Made by a program: the position numbers and the translations under genes
Source: Astropecten irregularis
Lineage: Eukaryota; Echinodermata; Asteroidea; Paxillosida; Astropectinidae
Assembly: GCA_963971285.1 (NCBI GenBank)
Contig: OZ020256.1
Coordinates: 2,606,501-2,670,500, forward strand
Length of the DNA stretch: 64,000 nucleotides
Direction of reading: 5' to 3'
Shown here: positions 9,766 through 56,611 of the stretch, piece by piece
Numbering within the stretch: the stretch's first letter is position 1
How the letters are laid out: each line of letters begins with the position of its first letter
The notes under the pieces: model-generated
What the model was told of the DNA's origin: nothing
The model's database searches: none
Seen by the model: only the letters and a program-made list of their open reading frames with translations

Positions 9766-10390
9766 TCAGTTCTCTATGTTCCGTTTGAAATGAAAAACAT
9801 GTAGTATATATGTAATGTAAATCTTATAACATTCGACAGGGGATGTCTGCTTGGTATGTCTCTTCCCTTGGGAAATGGGTCAGACGACGACAAATGCCTC
9901 ATTATATTTCGGCAGTCTACAACACTCTGCATGTATGTTTTATGTATGAATTGGTTTATGGGATAATCTATATTCTAACTCCTTTCAGAAAATCAGAAAG
10001 ATGATCGATGACCATCAACCTTTTTACACAGATAGTGTTTCAACCGTCTTGGTATTGGTCCCCGAACATAAGTGAAATTGTATATTTTGGACACGATGCA
10101 ATCTGACAAAATAGTTGTCATCTTTATAGACAAAGGTTTAAGACTATGATACGAAGATGAAAAAAGAACCCGACATCAAATTCTGCCTTGTTTTCGAGAA
10201 ACATTTTAGGGTGATATAGAAATGTCTCCCAAATGGTCACTTTCAGGCGCTAACGCTTAGCCTATAGGGTAAAGGTTTTAAGCGTGTGCCGGGCGTTTTT
10301 CCCCGTGGATATTTTCCCCCGATAGGTATCTCCTTTCGAGAACTATTGGACTTTTCCGTTAATTTGGCTTTTTACGTTTTGTAATTACAG
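9766..10390 (+). promoter_or_regulatory. 5' flank of the receptor gene with a possible splice acceptor
   Basis: No coding sequence is recognised. Just upstream of the receptor is a pyrimidine-rich run ending TTTTGTAATTACAG at 10390, a plausible 3' splice site that would place 10391-10423 as the spliced 5' UTR joined to the coding exon. The promoter itself cannot be located. Confidence 0.35.
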
Positions 10391-10423
10391 CGAAGTCTTC
10401 TGTCGGACTCAGACGACACTGCC

Positions 10424-11473
10424 ATGGCGCTGACTTACTTGGCAAATGCGTCCTTGGACGATACCTACGAAGAGACACAGGAAGACTTGAATCAGAACGC
10501 CATCATTGCCATGGGCGTGATCATGATGATCCTGACGGTAATCGGTGTCTTGGGCAACCTGTGTATCATTGCTATCGTTCTGCTGAACCGATCGATGCGC
10601 AACCGACCTAACGCCTTGGTGGCCAGCCTCGCCATTGGTGATCTGTTGCTGTTGCTTCTCTGCACCCCGCTCAGGATGTACCAACTGGTGTACTTCCGAT
10701 GGCCCTTCGGCTGGCTCATGTGTAAACTCTCTCACGGGTCAGTCATCGTGTCGCAGGCCGTGTCCATCTTCTCCATGGTGGCGCTCAGCCACGACCGGTA
10801 CCGTGCTATCGTCACGCCCATGAACTACCCCCGCTCCAGGGGCTCCAGTCACACCTTCATCGTCATCTCCGTCATCTGGTTCTTCGCCATCGTACTCTCC
10901 TTCCCGTCTGTGATATTCTCGCACGTGCGCGGCAACGAGTTGTTCGTTTGGTGCAACTACATCAACCACACCTCGGTAGAAGGCAGAATCCACGCCGTGG
11001 TGAGAGGCATGATCCTCTTCGTCATCCCGCTCCTGATCATCAACTCGTACTACTGCCTGGTCTCCAGGAAGCTCATCTTGAGCACCCGTGCCATGCCCGG
11101 TGAGGTCCATGACAAGAGGTCTCAGATCAGCTCCAGGAAGCGCCTGGCGTACCTGGTTCTTGCCATCGTCATACTCTTCACGATCTGCTGGCTCCCGTTC
11201 TTCGTCTTCGAGCTGTTGTTCCAGATCGACGCCAACATGGTGAATAGTTCCAACCCCCTGACCTACATGAGGTTGATCAGTGAGATCCTGACCTACTGCA
11301 ACTCCTGCATCAATCCGATCCTTATCACCGTCGTCAGCTCCACCTACCGGAATTACTTCAAGGCCTATTTTTTTTGTCGGTGCCGCGGCAAGGTTAGGTT
11401 CGACCGGCCGCGGGCGTCTACCGTATCCTCTAAGGCTTCTTCGGCCCGGACAAGGATGACAGAGTTTGCCTGA
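10424..11473 (+). CDS. Bombesin/GRP-type neuropeptide G-protein-coupled receptor (class A), single exon
   Basis: A 349-aa plasma-membrane receptor expected to bind an extracellular peptide and activate heterotrimeric G proteins. Seen: a 25-residue N-terminus with a sequon (N8-A-S), TM1 ~26-54 with N45, TM2 with LAIGD (D73), C100 before TM3 paired with C177 in loop 2, D124-R125-Y126, TM4 W152, TM5 P202, TM6 C255-W256-L257-P258, TM7 N297-P298. The tail has C318 and C320, likely lipidated, then a Ser/Arg-rich end. NPxxY reads NPILI, lacking the tyrosine at its usual place. The bombesin assignment rests on RPNALVASLAIGDLLLLL, SVIFSHV, and the loop-3 pattern KLILSTRAMPGE...QISSRKRLA before CWLP. 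Start: GCCATGG context and the expected N-terminal length. Codons are much more G+C-rich than the flanks. No intron. Subfamily is inferred; the ligand is unknown. Confidence 0.93.
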   Translation: MALTYLANASLDDTYEETQEDLNQNAIIAMGVIMMILTVIGVLGNLCIIAIVLLNRSMRNRPNALVASLAIGDLLLLLLCTPLRMYQLVYFRWPFGWLMCKLSHGSVIVSQAVSIFSMVALSHDRYRAIVTPMNYPRSRGSSHTFIVISVIWFFAIVLSFPSVIFSHVRGNELFVWCNYINHTSVEGRIHAVVRGMILFVIPLLIINSYYCLVSRKLILSTRAMPGEVHDKRSQISSRKRLAYLVLAIVILFTICWLPFFVFELLFQIDANMVNSSNPLTYMRLISEILTYCNSCINPILITVVSSTYRNYFKAYFFCRCRGKVRFDRPRASTVSSKASSARTRMTEFA

Positions 11474-31827: not shown

Positions 31828-32216
31828 TGACCCCGTCAAGTCAGCTTCCAGCCCCCGTCTTTGGCCTCGCTCTCTCTCCTGAAATCAAGTAAGTCCCATC
31901 AATCTGCCAGTTCCTAGGAACGGCTTTGCCAGTGATATTACCCGGCTCAATGCAGCGGGTCTGCGCTAATTTCCCGTGGGCTTTATTGTTCCAGTTTCGC
32001 CATTTTAAATTATGCATTAAATACTGTTAGGTTGCCTTTTGGTTTGATCAACTCATTTAAAGGATTGATGGGGATTGGTAACACAATTTCTTAGCATCGA
32101 TCTGAATGCTGACTTGTATACAGTACTACATGTACATGTACATGTATATGGTGAATGACCGAATTCAAAAACATGTATAGGCCTACATGCATGATAAAAA
32201 CGTGTCCCGCCAGTCC

Positions 32217-32637
32217 ATGTCCATAGTCCAGTTCAATCCAGTCCTGTCCTGTCCAGTCCAGTCCAATCCAGTCCAGTCCAGTCCAGTCCAGTCCAGACCA
32301 GTCCAATCCCGTCCAAACCAGTTCAGTCCAGTCCAGTACAGTCCAGACCAGTCCAGTCCAGTCCAGTCCAGTCCAGACCAGTCCAATCCAATCCAGACCA
32401 GTTCAGTCTAGTCCCGTGCAGTACAGTCCAATCCAGTCCATTCCTGTCCAGTCCAGTCCAGTCCAGTCCAGACCAGTCCAGTCCAGCCCAGTCCAGTCCA
32501 GCCCAGCCCAGCCCAGCCCAGCCCAACCCAGCCCAGCCCAGTCCAGTCCAGTCCAGCCCAGTTCAGTCGAGCCCAGCCAAGCCCAGCCCAGCCCAGTCCA
32601 GTCCAGTCCAGTCCAGTCCAGTCCAGTCCAGACCAGC
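32217..32637. repeat. Pentanucleotide satellite (CCAGT/CCAGC)n
   Basis: About 420 bp built on a 5-bp unit: CCAGT dominates at both sides, with a CCAGC-rich core around 32500-32590, plus CCAAT and CCAGA variants. Because 5 is not a multiple of 3, reading frames stay open on both strands (repeating GLDWT or SSPVQ peptides); these are not genes. Confidence 0.95.
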
Positions 32638-32974
32638 CCACGGCCATAGTCGTAGCTATATACGCGTTCCATCTGCTATACCATTCAAAGATGGGAACCA
32701 TTGCTGCTCAATGGCATAATAGTCACATACAACATAATACAAGAAAGAAGGTGGATCTTTCCTTTACGGGATCTCAGACTAGATATCCTTTTGCCCCAAT
32801 GTCCCTCCGTCAGTCTGAACTGTGATCTATTGCCGTGCTAGGTTCCTCCTGTATTTTTTATTGATAACTACCTGCGCATGTGTAAATAATGGCATATCGC
32901 ATTCTCATTGGATGCAGTGGAATCATGTTTCTGTCGGCAATCTCGCGGAGACGTCGATGGCAGAATGTATCGAA

Positions 32975-33637: not shown

Positions 33638-34054
33638 TCCCTTTCAGCCTGCGTACGAGTCCCTTTCAGCCTGCGTACGAGTCCCTTTCTGCCTGCGTAC
33701 GAGTCCATTTCAGCCTGCGCACGAGTCCCTTTCTGCCTGCGTACGAGTCCATTTCAGCCTGCGTACGAGTCCATTTCAGCCTGCGTACGAGTCCCTTTCT
33801 GCCTGCGTACGAGTCCATTTCAGCCTGCGTACGAGTCCCTTTCAGCCTGCGTACAAGTCCATTTAACCTGCGTACGAGTCCCTTTCAGCCTGCGTACGAG
33901 TCCATTTCAGCCTGCGTACGAGTCCCTTTCTGCCTGCGTACGAGTCCATTTCAGCCTGCGTACAAGTCCATTTCAGCCTGCGTACGAGTCCATTTCAGCC
34001 TGCGTACGAGTCCCTTTCTGCCTGCGTACGAGTCCCTTTCTGCCTGCGTACGAG
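33638..34054. repeat. 22-bp minisatellite, 19 units
   Basis: Unit TCCCTTTCAGCCTGCGTACG plus AG. Eighteen units are 22 bp and one (the eleventh) is 21 bp, which sums exactly to the 417-bp span. Two positions alternate in linked fashion: units are CCCTTTCAG, CCCTTTCTG or CCATTTCAG types. All three plus frames stay open because 22 is not a multiple of 3, so the 164- and 224-codon frames here are artefacts. CGTACG in each unit is palindromic. Confidence 0.95.
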
Positions 34055-34522
34055 TCTGTTCTTACCCTGCCCCTGGCGCACGAGTCACTTGTGCCGCCAT
34101 TTTGAAGATATTTGGGCCTGGTCTAAGGATCGCTTGGGCTTGTGTGTATTCCGCCTATAGTTTCCCTTTATATGGCCGGCCGCTTTATTACAAGGCCGAT
34201 GTTGGATTTATCTCGTTAAAGTTCCCTGAGTTGTCGTTAGTGCTACGTTAATAGCAAGTAGGCTATAGGAGTTATACTTTTGCTGACGCTCGAGATGCTT
34301 GTGTCCCTTTGCAAGATACTCGACCAGCCCATGAGTTTTCTATACCAATTGCCTAGGAATAGGAAACAACTTAGGCCTATACGTGTTGCTTATACCTACG
34401 AGTTGCTTAGGCTGGCGTTACGTTTGACAACTGTCGAGTTGACCTTACAAAGGAGGCTCAGAATTCAAACCGCCACAATTGCTGGTATCGGAGAATGGGG
34501 TCACAGAAGCAGATGAAATCCT
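34055..34522. other. No recognisable feature
   Basis: Sequence between minisatellite and MITE; no gene supported. Confidence 0.4.
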
Positions 34523-40923: not shown

Positions 40924-41731
40924 TTTTGCTTTACTTGCTTTATTGCAGATAGGGCAACGTCATGCATGCAGTTTGCATGCATAACACGAATTACTCCCCT
41001 GGTCCATGCCTGATCATTCTGCCCATGCCATTATACTGTACAAATATAATCACGCTGCACCCAGAAGGCCCTAACACTTGCCCTTTAGAAGTGTAATGCG
41101 AAGTATCTCATTTCTAATCAGAAAGAACTTGTTTCATTGACAATAACTGTGCCTGACATTCAGTGCGTAAACATCACGAGATCAGTTCATTTTCTCGCAA
41201 CATTTTCTGTATGAAGAACTTTAGGAGAAAGGGCGCCGGGGATTCTGAACACATGGACACATGGACACATCAGGCTATACAGCTAATAATTACGCATACA
41301 CATTGGCGTATGGTGTGTATCTTTAAAAGTCTATAAACCTAGACATTGGTGAATGCTGATTGATAAAACCATGCAGACACGCAGACACGCAGTCAGCTTG
41401 TATAGTTCCAAATGATTTAATTTCTTCTTTTTTTAGGCTTAATACATCTATACCAATGTTATTTTGGGCCAATATATTGTGTTTTATATGAAACTTGCGT
41501 CGCTATTCTCTGTCTTTTTGGGTGTATCACTTTGAAACTCGTTTCCCCAAGCAAGTCAAGATTTATTCAAGCCAGCTGATATGTTCTGAGCCAGTGGAAT
41601 TGGCACTGATTGCAGCCATTGCTTAATCATTCATACTGAAACACATAATAATGCAATTGAAGCTGTTAATTTACGTTATATTAAAATTAATGGAATCATC
41701 AATAACTACAATTGAAACTGACTGAATTTAA
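40921..41731. other. No recognisable feature
   Basis: No gene or shared repeat seen. Confidence 0.4.
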
Positions 41732-41916
41732 AGTCATTGAAAAGTGAACAAAGAAAAATTGACTGGAACGGGATTCGAACCGGCACCTCCTGAACAGCAC
41801 ACAGGCGCTCTACCAGGGCTGGATAGCTCAGTTGGTAGACGTACGGTATTCAGGAGGTCGGTCGCCGGTTCGAATCCCGCTCCAGACAATTTTTCTTTGT
41901 TCACGTTTCAATGACT
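41732..41916. repeat. Palindromic pair of tRNA-like sequences (fold-back SINE-like unit)
   Basis: The plus arm (41818-41889) has an A box TAGCTCAGTTGG, a B box GGTTCGAATCC and a CTGGA/TCCAG end pairing, i.e. a 69-nt tRNA-like sequence with degraded anticodon region. The minus arm (about 41754-41816) reads GGTAGAGCGCC...GGTTCGAATCCCGTTCCAGTC. Both arms continue outwards through an AATTTTTCTTTGTTCAC block and CAATGACT, so the whole is an inverted repeat of about 185 bp. It is not a functional tRNA gene by eye; internal Pol III promoter boxes survive in the plus arm. Confidence 0.75.
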
Positions 41917-42107
41917 GTATATTAAATGGGATATGTACGAAATCAACATGGTTGCCCCGGTGTCTTCAAACTCAGACCTTGTCTGATTGTACTGGCTGTC
42001 GGTTGGTGGGGTTGCCTTGGGGTGGGGGAGTTCTCACAGGGTGTGGCCGAGCCACCTTTCCTCTGAATATATCACTCAGTGGGCTCTTGGTTTGTTCTTT
42101 CCCTCAG

Positions 42108-42178: not shown

Positions 42179-42424
42179 GTAAGCAATCCTGTATTTTGTT
42201 GCATTTTATTGAATTTATGTCATTCGCAACATTGTGAATGATCTACTTCTTGCATTTTAGCCTTCTCTTCAGAAATTGCACATACCTCCTGAAATAAAAT
42301 AAAATCATAAACATTATTTGAGTCAGTGGATCGGTTTGCGGAAACACCATGTAAGAATCGTTCGTACTTTCACACTTCTATATCGTGCGCACTTCTATAA
42401 TCGTTCGCACTTCTCACAATTAAG

Positions 42425-42468
42425 GTCTCAACGTTTCGACTAGCCTGCTCTAGTCATCATCAGGAGAC
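42425..42468 (-). ncRNA. Minimal type I hammerhead ribozyme, intact core
   Basis: Minus strand, 5' to 3': stem I GTCTC (42468-42464), CTGATGA (42463-42457), T, stem II GACTAG (42455-42450), loop AGCAGG, CTAGTC (42443-42438), GAAA (42437-42434), CGTT (42433-42430), stem I partner GAGAC (42429-42425). All core positions match the hammerhead consensus (CUGAUGA, GAAA, NUH with GUU). Stem III is only 2 bp without a loop (AC/GU), as in the minimal hammerheads of Penelope-like elements and small animal retrozymes, which are thought to act as dimers. The predicted cut is between 42430 and 42429. Activity and host element are inferred. Confidence 0.75.
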
Positions 42469-42601
42469 GAGTGTTTTAGTCTAACAACATTTAAATACTA
42501 GTTATGTATTTTGAGATGTTAATTAAATTAAGTGCAAGTATAAACTGCTGTAAACTGCTCATCAGCCAAAGAAAGGACCTGAAATGCTTGGAGTCAGGAG
42601 G

Positions 42602-42640
42602 GCCTGACGTTTCGATCCTAGCAGGATCTTTATCGAAGGC
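42602..42640 (-). ncRNA. Decayed hammerhead-ribozyme-like motif D, upstream of the intact one
   Basis: Minus strand: stem I GCCT (42640-42637), TCGATAA (42636-42630) for CTGATGA, stem II GATCC (42628-42624)/GGATC (42618-42614), GAAA (42613-42610), CGTC with C17 at 42606, partner AGGC (42605-42602). Stems are intact and GUC is canonical, but three core positions differ, including A at G8. Flanks match A1 and E. It lies on the same strand as the intact motif; cut sites are 176 nt apart. Confidence 0.6.
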
Positions 42641-42648
42641 TTAAATGC

Positions 42649-43395
42649 AGTCGGGGAATCGGGGCATCGGACATTGGTATAATTTTGGTCATCACGCAGA
42701 ATGATATAGCATTAAGTTGAATGAAAACATGAAATTGGTGTTTCAAGGTTTTATGTCTTGCACGGGGTTTCAATCCAATACAGAGATTGAAGAAGTCCAC
42801 GAAATGAAACGAAAATGTCCTCTCCACACGAGCTATACTTCCGCCAATGCAATCGACGACACTAACTTAATTGTAATAATCCCGCCGTTGCTCTGCCGGG
42901 CACTGTAATCCATGCCGAGAAGACAATTACAGTGAGAATTGGCGATTTCATTCTCTTTCCCAATCATGACGTTGAACAAAAACAACGGAGAATTGGTCGT
43001 CATTTCATCAAATCAGCCTGACCCCGCCGGTCTCACCTCGACCACGTGTTTTGTTATACGTCGTCCCGCGCCTGATGAAAACAAGAAGCTGTAAAAACAA
43101 AAGACGCGGGCCGCGTCTTTCAATCAAGTCTCTGGGACTACCGCGAAGTGCGAAAACATCCAAATCAAAGGAGCGTAATATGCTCTTCTAGGTAACTGAT
43201 TGAAACTCCGGAGCAACGGCCCCTGACCGACGATACTTGATTGAAAAAGTCCCGGAGATGCAAAGTCTAGGATGCAATATTGTACTTCCTTCATGATCAT
43301 TACAATTGGTCGCATCTAAATATGTTTACCGAAACTATAATTGGTCTCACAAAATACGTTCAATGGAGAGGTACGCAGAATAAATACAAAGTTTG
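42649..43395. other. No recognisable feature
   Basis: No gene or shared repeat seen. Confidence 0.4.
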
Positions 43396-51887: not shown

Positions 51888-52991
51888 TTAAACCTGATGA
51901 TCAGTAATTATCGCCGCGCGAGAGTGATCCATTTGTGACTTGCGAAAGCGAGATTCGTCTGTTACAGTGTGCATGGTTAGGGAAGCGTTCTTGGTGACGC
52001 AACGGCCTGCTATACGATCGTCGTTCGTTTGAACGTTTAGGCAACAGCAACATGCCTTCTTCAAGTACTGCCTGTGAGCGGTGCTTAGAATGAACAGAAT
52101 AACCGGATTAATCGTGGAGTTGATGCGGATCAAGATTCTGCTGACACGCTTTGCATATATCAAGGCGCTGTTAGTGAAAAAAACCAATTCGTAGATACGC
52201 AGGAATTCTAAGCAGTAGTGTGTACACCACGCGATGTTAAACACGACCACTATAATGATAATGGCAACGGCCAGGCGAAGACGTTGGCGGCGCTGTCGCG
52301 GTGACACCGCCGCGTTTTGGCCTTGCAAGACGGCATTGGTGGCAACGAGGTTAGTGGCTGTGGAGCAGTAGCTAAGCGTTATGATGACCGTGGGGATGAT
52401 AAGGAAAAACACGACGTGTATCCAATTCATTAGCTTACTCTGCTCTAATGTAAACACGCATCTTCCGCTGAAGTATAGAGCAGTCGATAGGTACGCGGGA
52501 ATCGCGACGACGAAACTGGACAACCAAATCAAACTTATACCAAACAGGATGGAATGGAGACGCAGTCGCCCGCTCCGAAATCGCCGAAATGCCAGGGGCC
52601 TGGACACGGCCAAATAACGGTCAATACTTAATGCCGTCAGCGTAAATATGGAGGCACCCAATAGAACGATTCTGAAATAAAGAAAAAAGCTGCAGCTTTC
52701 CTCTGTCTTGAAAATGTGATATTTACTAGGTATGTACGCTAGCGTCTCCACCATGCCAATGGGTATGAACATCATAATGAGTCCTAGATCAGCCACAGCT
52801 AGGTTGGTAATGAGATAGTTGGGTACGGTGCGCATACCTTTGTATCTTAGTGAAATATAAATGAGGGAGACATTACCCACCACTCCGATGAGGAGACACA
52901 GGACATCCACGACAACATTAAGATGTGTCCAATTCGGAGGAAATGGAGGATAATCATAGTCATATCCAGTCTCGTTCTCGCTCAAATTCAT
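51888..52991 (-). CDS. Class A G-protein-coupled receptor, peptide-receptor-like orphan, single exon
   Basis: A 367-aa seven-transmembrane receptor. The frame extends 6 codons upstream without an ATG; I take the ATG at 52991 (A at -3). Seen: N-terminal sequons N2, N6 and N20 with a Tyr/Asp-rich segment, TM1 with G39-N40, TM2 LAVAD (D68), C100 paired with loop-2 C178, D124-R125-Y126, TM4 W156, TM5 P200, TM7 N295-P296, and a CCCC cluster at 314-317 likely lipidated. Two departures: TM6 reads A-W-C-T-H (W255), lacking the CWxP cysteine and proline order, and TM7 reads NPVIL instead of NPxxY. IFTLTALSIDRYLAV and VPNYLITNLAVAD recall bombesin/endothelin-type peptide receptors, but this is weaker than for the 10.4-kb gene. 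Ligand and coupling are unknown. No intron; codon use is less G+C-biased than the other receptor. Confidence 0.9.
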   Translation of the reverse strand: MNLSENETGYDYDYPPFPPNWTHLNVVVDVLCLLIGVVGNVSLIYISLRYKGMRTVPNYLITNLAVADLGLIMMFIPIGMVETLAYIPSKYHIFKTEESCSFFLYFRIVLLGASIFTLTALSIDRYLAVSRPLAFRRFRSGRLRLHSILFGISLIWLSSFVVAIPAYLSTALYFSGRCVFTLEQSKLMNWIHVVFFLIIPTVIITLSYCSTATNLVATNAVLQGQNAAVSPRQRRQRLRLAVAIIIIVVVFNIAWCTHYCLEFLRIYELVFFTNSALIYAKRVSRILIRINSTINPVILFILSTAHRQYLKKACCCCLNVQTNDDRIAGRCVTKNASLTMHTVTDESRFRKSQMDHSRAAIITDHQV

Positions 52992-53603
52992 AATGTCAAC
53001 GTTTTGCAATCACCTTCGCGCCGGCGACTTTTAACTTAGAAGGGTTAATTAGTGTCTCAAAGTAAGGGCGTGTCAGGTGGTAAGACCCAAGAGATACTTT
53101 TCAACAGCTACACGCCCCTTTTGTCTCTACTAACTTCAGTCTGTTGAATGGCCGATTCATTGAAAACCTTTACCACACATCATAGATTATGTTCACCTAT
53201 TATTGAGATGCGATGTCTGCACAAGATATAGTCCTAACCGTTTGCATCTATACAGTACAACAGTGCACAATCAACAATTTTAATTGGCCTCCTTTTCGTT
53301 ATAAAAGTTGGCTAAATAGATTTGTCATATAACCCAGGGTTATAGATGAACTAGAATGCCCTCCTGAGAGCTAATTTTGTATAAATCTCGATAGTTATAC
53401 ATCCAGGTATAGTTTACGTGATGTAAATGTAGTCTCGTTTCAAGTTATCAGCATTCGTCATCAGCATTCCAGTTTTCAGCAACGGTAGATCTTGCCATGA
53501 GTTCATGCACAGAGCCACGGGTAATACGCCCACCAAACTGTACAAATTAAAGTGAAAGAGAAGGTTGGTGTCAAAATACAGCATTACATTTTAAAGTGTC
53601 ATT
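52992..53603 (-). promoter_or_regulatory. 5' flank of the minus-strand receptor
   Basis: No promoter element could be placed with confidence. A weak acceptor-like CCCTTCTAAG (minus strand, about 53036-53045) might border the coding exon. Otherwise featureless. Confidence 0.2.
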
Positions 53604-56338: not shown

Positions 56339-56611
56339 TGCGGTGACACCATGTAATCTCTTCTGTGAGAGTGTGTGGTTCTGAGAAGAACCGTTGGTAT
56401 TATCTCGACGTTCCGAACAGTGTGCTCTGTTCGTCCTCAGGAAAGTGACTGGTTGCCTGACTTCGATGATGCTGAATATAAGTTCCAAGTCAGGCAACCA
56501 GTCACTATCATGAGGACAAACAGAGCACACTGTTCGGAACGTCGAGCTAATACCAACGGTTCTTCTCAGAACCACACACTCTCACGGAAGAGATTACATG
56601 GTGTCAACGCA
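56339..56611. mobile_element. 273-bp near-perfect hairpin element
   Basis: Two ~120-bp arms (about 56344-56463 and 56488-56605) are almost exact reverse complements around a 24-bp loop; only a handful of mismatches were seen. Ends are TGACACCATGTAATCTCTTC and GAAGAGATTACATGGTGTCA. Near-identical peptides on the two strands are a by-product. A transcript would make a long double-stranded RNA. Confidence 0.9.

Follow-up and report, generated by a model that had tools for sequence, protein, structure and literature searches.

The window analyzed here, a 64,000-nucleotide stretch of contig OZ020256.1 from the sea star Astropecten irregularis, carries two hammerhead-shaped units on its minus strand, which we call units A and B. 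Each of them lies at the 5' edge of a repeat, and an A+T-rich stretch separates the two repeats. The features of the locus, in window coordinates, are the following.

42317..42324, minus strand: candidate target-site duplication on the 3' side of the B copy, GACTCAAA (by eye, suggestive only)
42326..42473, minus strand: copy of the family-B repeat, read as a solo Penelope-like pseudo-LTR (match boundaries; RT and GIY-YIG-like frames in locus L039)
42425..42468, minus strand: unit B, a small type I hammerhead motif (sequence, fold, pattern counts)
42474..42481, minus strand: candidate target-site duplication on the 5' side of the B copy, GACTAAAA (by eye, suggestive only)
42482..42527, no strand: A+T-rich stretch between repeats A and B (hardly any repeat matches)
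42528..42536, minus strand: candidate target-site duplication on the 3' side of the A copy, TGCACTTAA (by eye, suggestive only)
42537..42647, minus strand: copy of the family-A repeat, pseudo-LTR-like, with unit A at its 5' edge (match boundaries)
42602..42640, minus strand: unit A, a hammerhead-shaped motif (sequence, fold, chance scan, 901 genome matches with the same core)
42641..42649, minus strand: candidate target-site duplication on the 5' side of the A copy, TGCATTTAA (by eye, suggestive only)

Elsewhere in the window, long frames matching rhodopsin-family GPCRs (PF00001) are found at 10385-11470 on the plus strand (E 2.8e-54) and at 51891-53009 on the minus strand (E 5.5e-36). Stem-loops of the histone 3' UTR type (Rfam RF00032), both scoring above the gathering threshold, lie in divergent orientation at 56353-56397 (minus strand) and 56553-56597 (plus strand). 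There are also two tandem arrays, one with about 86 copies of the 5-bp unit CCAGT at 32210-32640 and one with about 19 copies of a 22-bp unit at 33638-34056, and an inverted repeat at 41725-41923 with 60-nt arms that are 92% complementary. The GGTTCGAATCC of this inverted repeat resembles a tRNA box by eye; ARAGORN found no tRNA within the window.

Sequence and fold of the two units

Read on the minus strand, unit B has a stem I of 5 bp (GUCUC/GAGAC), the canonical core CUGAUGA (42463-42457) followed by a 6-bp stem II (GACUAG/CUAGUC), then GAAA and a GUU cleavage triplet with a predicted cut at 42430/42429. All of these elements had been named in the preliminary description and were confirmed in the sequence. 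The unit therefore combines the CUGANGA and GAAA core of a hammerhead with stems I and II, and has one additional base after A9. Unit A consists of a 4-bp stem I (GCCU/AGGC), a stem II (GAUCC/GGAUC), GAAA and a GUC triplet, with a predicted cut at 42606/42605. Its core, UCGAUAA (42636-42630), differs from CUGAUGA by the changes C3U, U4C and G8A; it is not a CUGANGA core, and this holds across its family. Both units have this additional base directly before stem II, following A9: it is U42456 in unit B and A42629 in unit A. In both, the place of stem III is taken by a loopless ACGU, which makes closure within a single unit impossible. The lowest-energy fold of each unit taken singly kept stems I and II and paired some of the core bases together. 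As described before, 176 nt separate the two predicted cuts.

The window was scanned with a pattern consisting of the core, 0 or 1 extra base, stems II and I with minimum lengths of 5 and 4 bp, and GAAACGUH. There was one hit with the exact core and there were two when up to 3 core mismatches were allowed, while 150 dinucleotide shuffles gave no hit under either condition. The two hammerhead-shaped units, both reported in the preliminary description, are thus present and are not the product of chance. The Rfam hammerhead models, on which that description had staked its reading of 42425-42468, gave no match there at E <= 10, an outcome it had named as a refutation, although these models expect a closed stem III. 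Five Rfam matches at E <= 10 were found in 42200-42900, with no hammerhead model among them. Units A and B share the order of core elements with Hammerhead_1 (RF00163), but neither matches it at that threshold in this interval. A search of the genome (475.7 Mb, 168 contigs) with RF00163 also produced no match among the 73 scored of 56,583 candidates.

Two repeat families and the probable pseudo-LTR anatomy of family B

Units A and B belong to two repeat families whose matches have separate boundaries. After removal of the window's own loci (L001, L031 and L092), 70 unit-A matches and 89 unit-B matches were found in the retrieved loci, and none spanned both units. The family-A matches start at 42647 in 34 of 70 cases and end at 42582 in 21 and at 42535 in 12; across full-length alignments the 3' end of this copy is approximate, falling at 42523-42540. 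The family-B matches end at 42326 in 49 of 89, and this copy opens with the hammerhead on its 5' edge and continues as a tail of about 100 nt. A few family-A matches extend into the A+T-rich stretch as far as 42523.

Queries against the genome gave the same picture, with copy numbers that are lower bounds. When a query covering both units (42660-42400) was used, only the window itself matched across both among the 40 scored of 2,573 candidates, and the other places matched the unit-A half only, from about 42647 to 42540-42523. A second A-B block was not found among these scored places. A query of 42525-42300 matched the unit-B half, mostly from 42473 to 42326 (40 scored of 1,597). The B family was represented by 39 scored places besides the window, at 83-95% identity, most of which cover the query from position 53-73 to about 200, equivalent to 42473 to 42326 in the window.

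The flanks of both copies contain candidate target-site duplications with one mismatch each. TGCATTTAA is identical at 8 of 9 positions to 42528-42536 and overlaps family A's own CATTT; GACTAAAA and GACTCAAA, around the unit-B copy, were picked by eye and agree at 7 of 8. Several repeat copies in both families have a head-to-head inverted neighbor. Units A and B are very probably two independent insertions of different families, about 50-65 bp apart, B being Penelope-like and A of the same kind. On this reading, two distinct and abundant repeats happened to insert as neighbors, and the 176-nt RNA that they enclose is therefore most likely coincidental. The preliminary description was right that the outer sequences of the units differ, and two unrelated insertions account for this.

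The head of family B had 1,341 matches in the genome, with units of tandem arrays counted singly, versus 0 for the reversed control. The looser pattern CTGATGA...GAAACGTY had 2,890 matches versus 30 for its reversed form, and this is not a count of hammerheads since the pattern includes stretches of coding frames without stem I (L061, L062, L063, L065 and L066). At L061, L063 and L066, and on the other strand at L062 and L065, another Penelope-type family is found in which CTGATGA...GAAACGTC overlaps the end of the endonuclease-like frame, without stem I.

In locus L039, an RVT_1 frame (E 3.5e-10) and a GIY-YIG-like frame (E 0.0025; 18.5 bits, below the curated Pfam cut-off of 22.6) were found 5' of the hammerhead, both on the same strand as it. 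The endonuclease-like frame of L039 also matches L041, L043, L049 and L060. The sequence of unit B downstream of these frames corresponds to the layout of a Penelope-like element. Unit B has adjoining RT and GIY-YIG-like frames in longer copies and a small hammerhead in the repeat, two features of Penelope-like pseudo-LTRs. The sequence TTTCAATC stands just upstream of 104 of the 1,341 B heads, as it does in the long copies. Among 31 B heads selected with a strict pattern in the retrieved loci, 22 lose the upstream element sequence no more than 12 nt from the core and one loses it at 17 nt, while it is kept over all 30 nt compared in eight, some of these full-length ones being source copies of the yardstick. 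The 5' ends of the B copies thus cluster at the outer edge of the hammerhead. Judged from these sequence comparisons, the best reading of unit B is that of a solo pseudo-LTR from a Penelope-like element.

A G directly precedes GTCTC in 655 of the 1,341 B heads, array units included, at a position where the long copies have C. It could be a cap-derived G, the result of cDNA folding back on stem I, or the mark of a subfamily. B-type tandem arrays with one motif per approximately 54 bp were found in L091 (C1:3250879-3252003), C19:4734175-4735995 and C22:10121910-10122218. The C1 array has 20 strict pattern matches and one more with G8A, and strict unit-to-unit junctions number 16 on C19 and 3 on C22. 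Neighboring units of such 54-bp arrays, if carried on one transcript, could pair as dimers and give RNAs of about 54 nt.

The altered core of family A

The pattern TCGATAA...GAAACGYRTC had 901 matches in the genome versus 4 in the control. A core-free pattern applied to the retrieved loci identified 44 A-type heads, with the cores TTGAGAA in 22 (mostly array units), TCGATAA in 17 (the window's own copy included) and five others once each; CTGATGA did not occur among them. The preliminary description had correctly recognized the stems, the GUC triplet and the three core changes of unit A, but the changes are what is usual in the family rather than damage to the copy in the window. With TCGATAA common to 901 matches, the change must predate the spread of the family. 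Two further A-type heads are present within the window (plus strand, 25626; minus strand, 13215).

Upstream sequence is shared over at least 28 nt in 7 of 57 A heads, one of which is the reference itself. Exact end repeats of at least 7 nt were present in 8 of 20 short A copies versus 7.9% of 380 mismatched pairings, and absent from the other 12; this test left out the 37 of 57 A heads with more than 12 nt of upstream extension or an unrecognized tail, including array units. Short target-site duplications and head-to-head inverted copies, both features of pseudo-LTRs, are thus found in the unit-A family. A tblastn search of 29 loci of about 3 kb, which covered about 1.5 kb on either flank and used three query frames taken from other families, detected no Penelope coding frames near family A at E <= 1e-3. 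Since a coding frame was not found in these 29 loci, the Penelope origin of family A is argued from anatomy, from which we infer that unit A may be Penelope-derived.

Related heads show further variation at core positions 3 and 8. Tandem arrays of 60 bp with an A-like unit and the head UUGAGAA (U3, U4, A8) were found in L074, L075, L076 (1870-2460) and L088. At least 17 of the TTGATAA places listed run on, by eye, into A(A)GGC and an arm rich in AGC, resembling the CTGATGAAGGCT...AGCC type. They could represent a further case of the U3-A8 double change, in a second stem-II type (TTGATAAAGGCT...AGCC next to CTGATGAAGGCT...AGCC); stem I of the CTGATGAAGGCT...AGCC-like type is weak wherever it is readable. 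Counts for the four 3-8 combinations, with the reversed-pattern control in parentheses, were 2,890 (30) for C3/G8, 286 (92) for U3/A8, 129 (66) for C3/A8 and 277 (58) for U3/G8. Although these counts suggest a strong linkage of positions 3 and 8, the matches come from copies of few families rather than from independent events, and the controls make up a large part of three of the counts.

Among the type III hammerhead mutants reported in PMC9901934, only a G:C swap of the C3-G8 pair rescues activity in this region. On that basis, unit A, with U3-A8 and C4, is probably not an ordinary self-cleaving hammerhead.

Relation to known elements and alternative readings

Hammerheads in Penelope pseudo-LTRs are known from Cervera and De la Pena 2014 and Lunse, Weinberg and Breaker 2017, as cited in PMC7761336 and PMC11167929. 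Minimal type I hammerheads that lack helix III are reported to number in the thousands in many animal genomes; most are dispersed, and some lie in Penelope pseudo-LTRs (PMC7761336). The repeats studied here have in common with such pseudo-LTRs a short repeat with a hammerhead on its 5' edge, the lack of a helix III loop, RT and GIY-YIG-like frames in longer copies, inverted neighbors and dispersed short copies. They differ from them in the non-canonical core of family A and possibly in the extra base between A9 and stem II that families A and B both carry. The Penelope pseudo-LTRs of a rotifer are reported to have a 5'-end palindrome and in some cases a 31-bp tail, to occur next to inverted pseudo-LTRs, and to come with duplications of 8-10 bp; solo copies without target-site duplications are reported there as well, and the same source already considers 5'-palindrome pseudo-LTRs and the origin of inverted copies by self-priming (PMC3846280). 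Unit B belongs to this already known kind of hammerhead-bearing Penelope pseudo-LTR.

The two units had been proposed to be a tandem pair that delimits a functional 176-nt RNA, a retrozyme-like monomer that would be excised and circularized. The canonical core of unit B agrees with this proposal, and the spacing was rightly placed in the retrozyme size range, the circles reported from invertebrate tissues measuring about 170-400 nt (PMC7229834). The metazoan non-LTR retrozymes of that report are type I hammerhead elements too. However, they consist of a single monomer repeated in tandem, each copy with the same hammerhead, whereas units A and B come from two families, share no block and have no closed helix III, no match in the retrieved loci spans them, and a second copy of the A-B block is absent among the scored and retrieved places. 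The core of unit A is also non-canonical. Across the units, the stem I strands pair at only 2 of 4 positions (5' strand of A with 3' strand of B) and 3 of 5 positions (5' strand of B with 3' strand of A), and these are scattered. A 176-nt circle, made of the 5' half of B and the 3' half of A, could not reform a hammerhead from such strands and would therefore not be a retrozyme monomer. We consider the retrozyme reading extremely unlikely. Units A and B might instead fold through ACGU into an intramolecular double hammerhead, giving unit B a cleavage partner on the same transcript. A double hammerhead shares stem I between its two units, and the A and B strands fail to pair, so that they could not act jointly. 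This arrangement is very unlikely as well, even though both units contain the self-complementary ACGU and dimer cleavage of minimal hammerheads has been proposed (PMC7761336). Both possibilities were rejected for the lack of a shared block among the places compared and the unpaired stem I strands.

The changes at three conserved core positions could also mean that unit A is merely a decayed hammerhead. Against this stand the core shared by 901 matches and the 44 A-type heads, dominated by TTGAGAA and TCGATAA, in none of which CTGATGA remains. Decay of a single copy was rejected as the cause of a family-wide core, and we regard it as highly improbable. Not quite so improbable, though still unlikely, is that family A constitutes a natural hammerhead-shaped lineage in which C3-G8 has become U3-A8, accompanied by U4 or C4, and which would cleave, perhaps with an element protein, or whose fold would serve something else.

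Under the preferred reading, two independent insertions, unit B would be a pseudo-LTR with a small type I hammerhead on its 5' edge and a tail of about 100 nt, and reverse transcription would start near the tail. A start of reverse transcription inside the RNA has been published for an anole Penelope-like element. Since ACGU is self-complementary, a stem III could be made jointly by a pair of B units; in a transcript, unit B would probably cleave only as a dimer of B-type units through ACGU or with an element protein. Dimer cleavage may also apply to minimal hammerheads without helix III in general (PMC7761336). In the absence of protein the anole Penelope hammerhead did not cleave, and mutants of it still inserted in vitro; earlier protein-free self-cleavage of a Penelope hammerhead in magnesium is mentioned in the same article (PMC11167929). 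Unit A would be the head, hammerhead-shaped and with a non-canonical core, of a pseudo-LTR-like piece from a second family, and would most likely not cleave in the usual way. No function of its own is expected of the 176-nt interval.

The analysis removes the 176-nt "retrozyme" as a false lead and puts in its place a clear anatomy of two repeats. In one genome, hammerhead-headed repeats have spread widely with both canonical (1,341 matches) and altered cores (901 matches), and this spread of both fits the anole element whose hammerhead mutants keep inserting in vitro (PMC11167929). As a variant, family A merits testing at the bench. The canonical and altered cores amount to a natural experiment that can be counted, through which the role of the hammerhead for these elements becomes testable.
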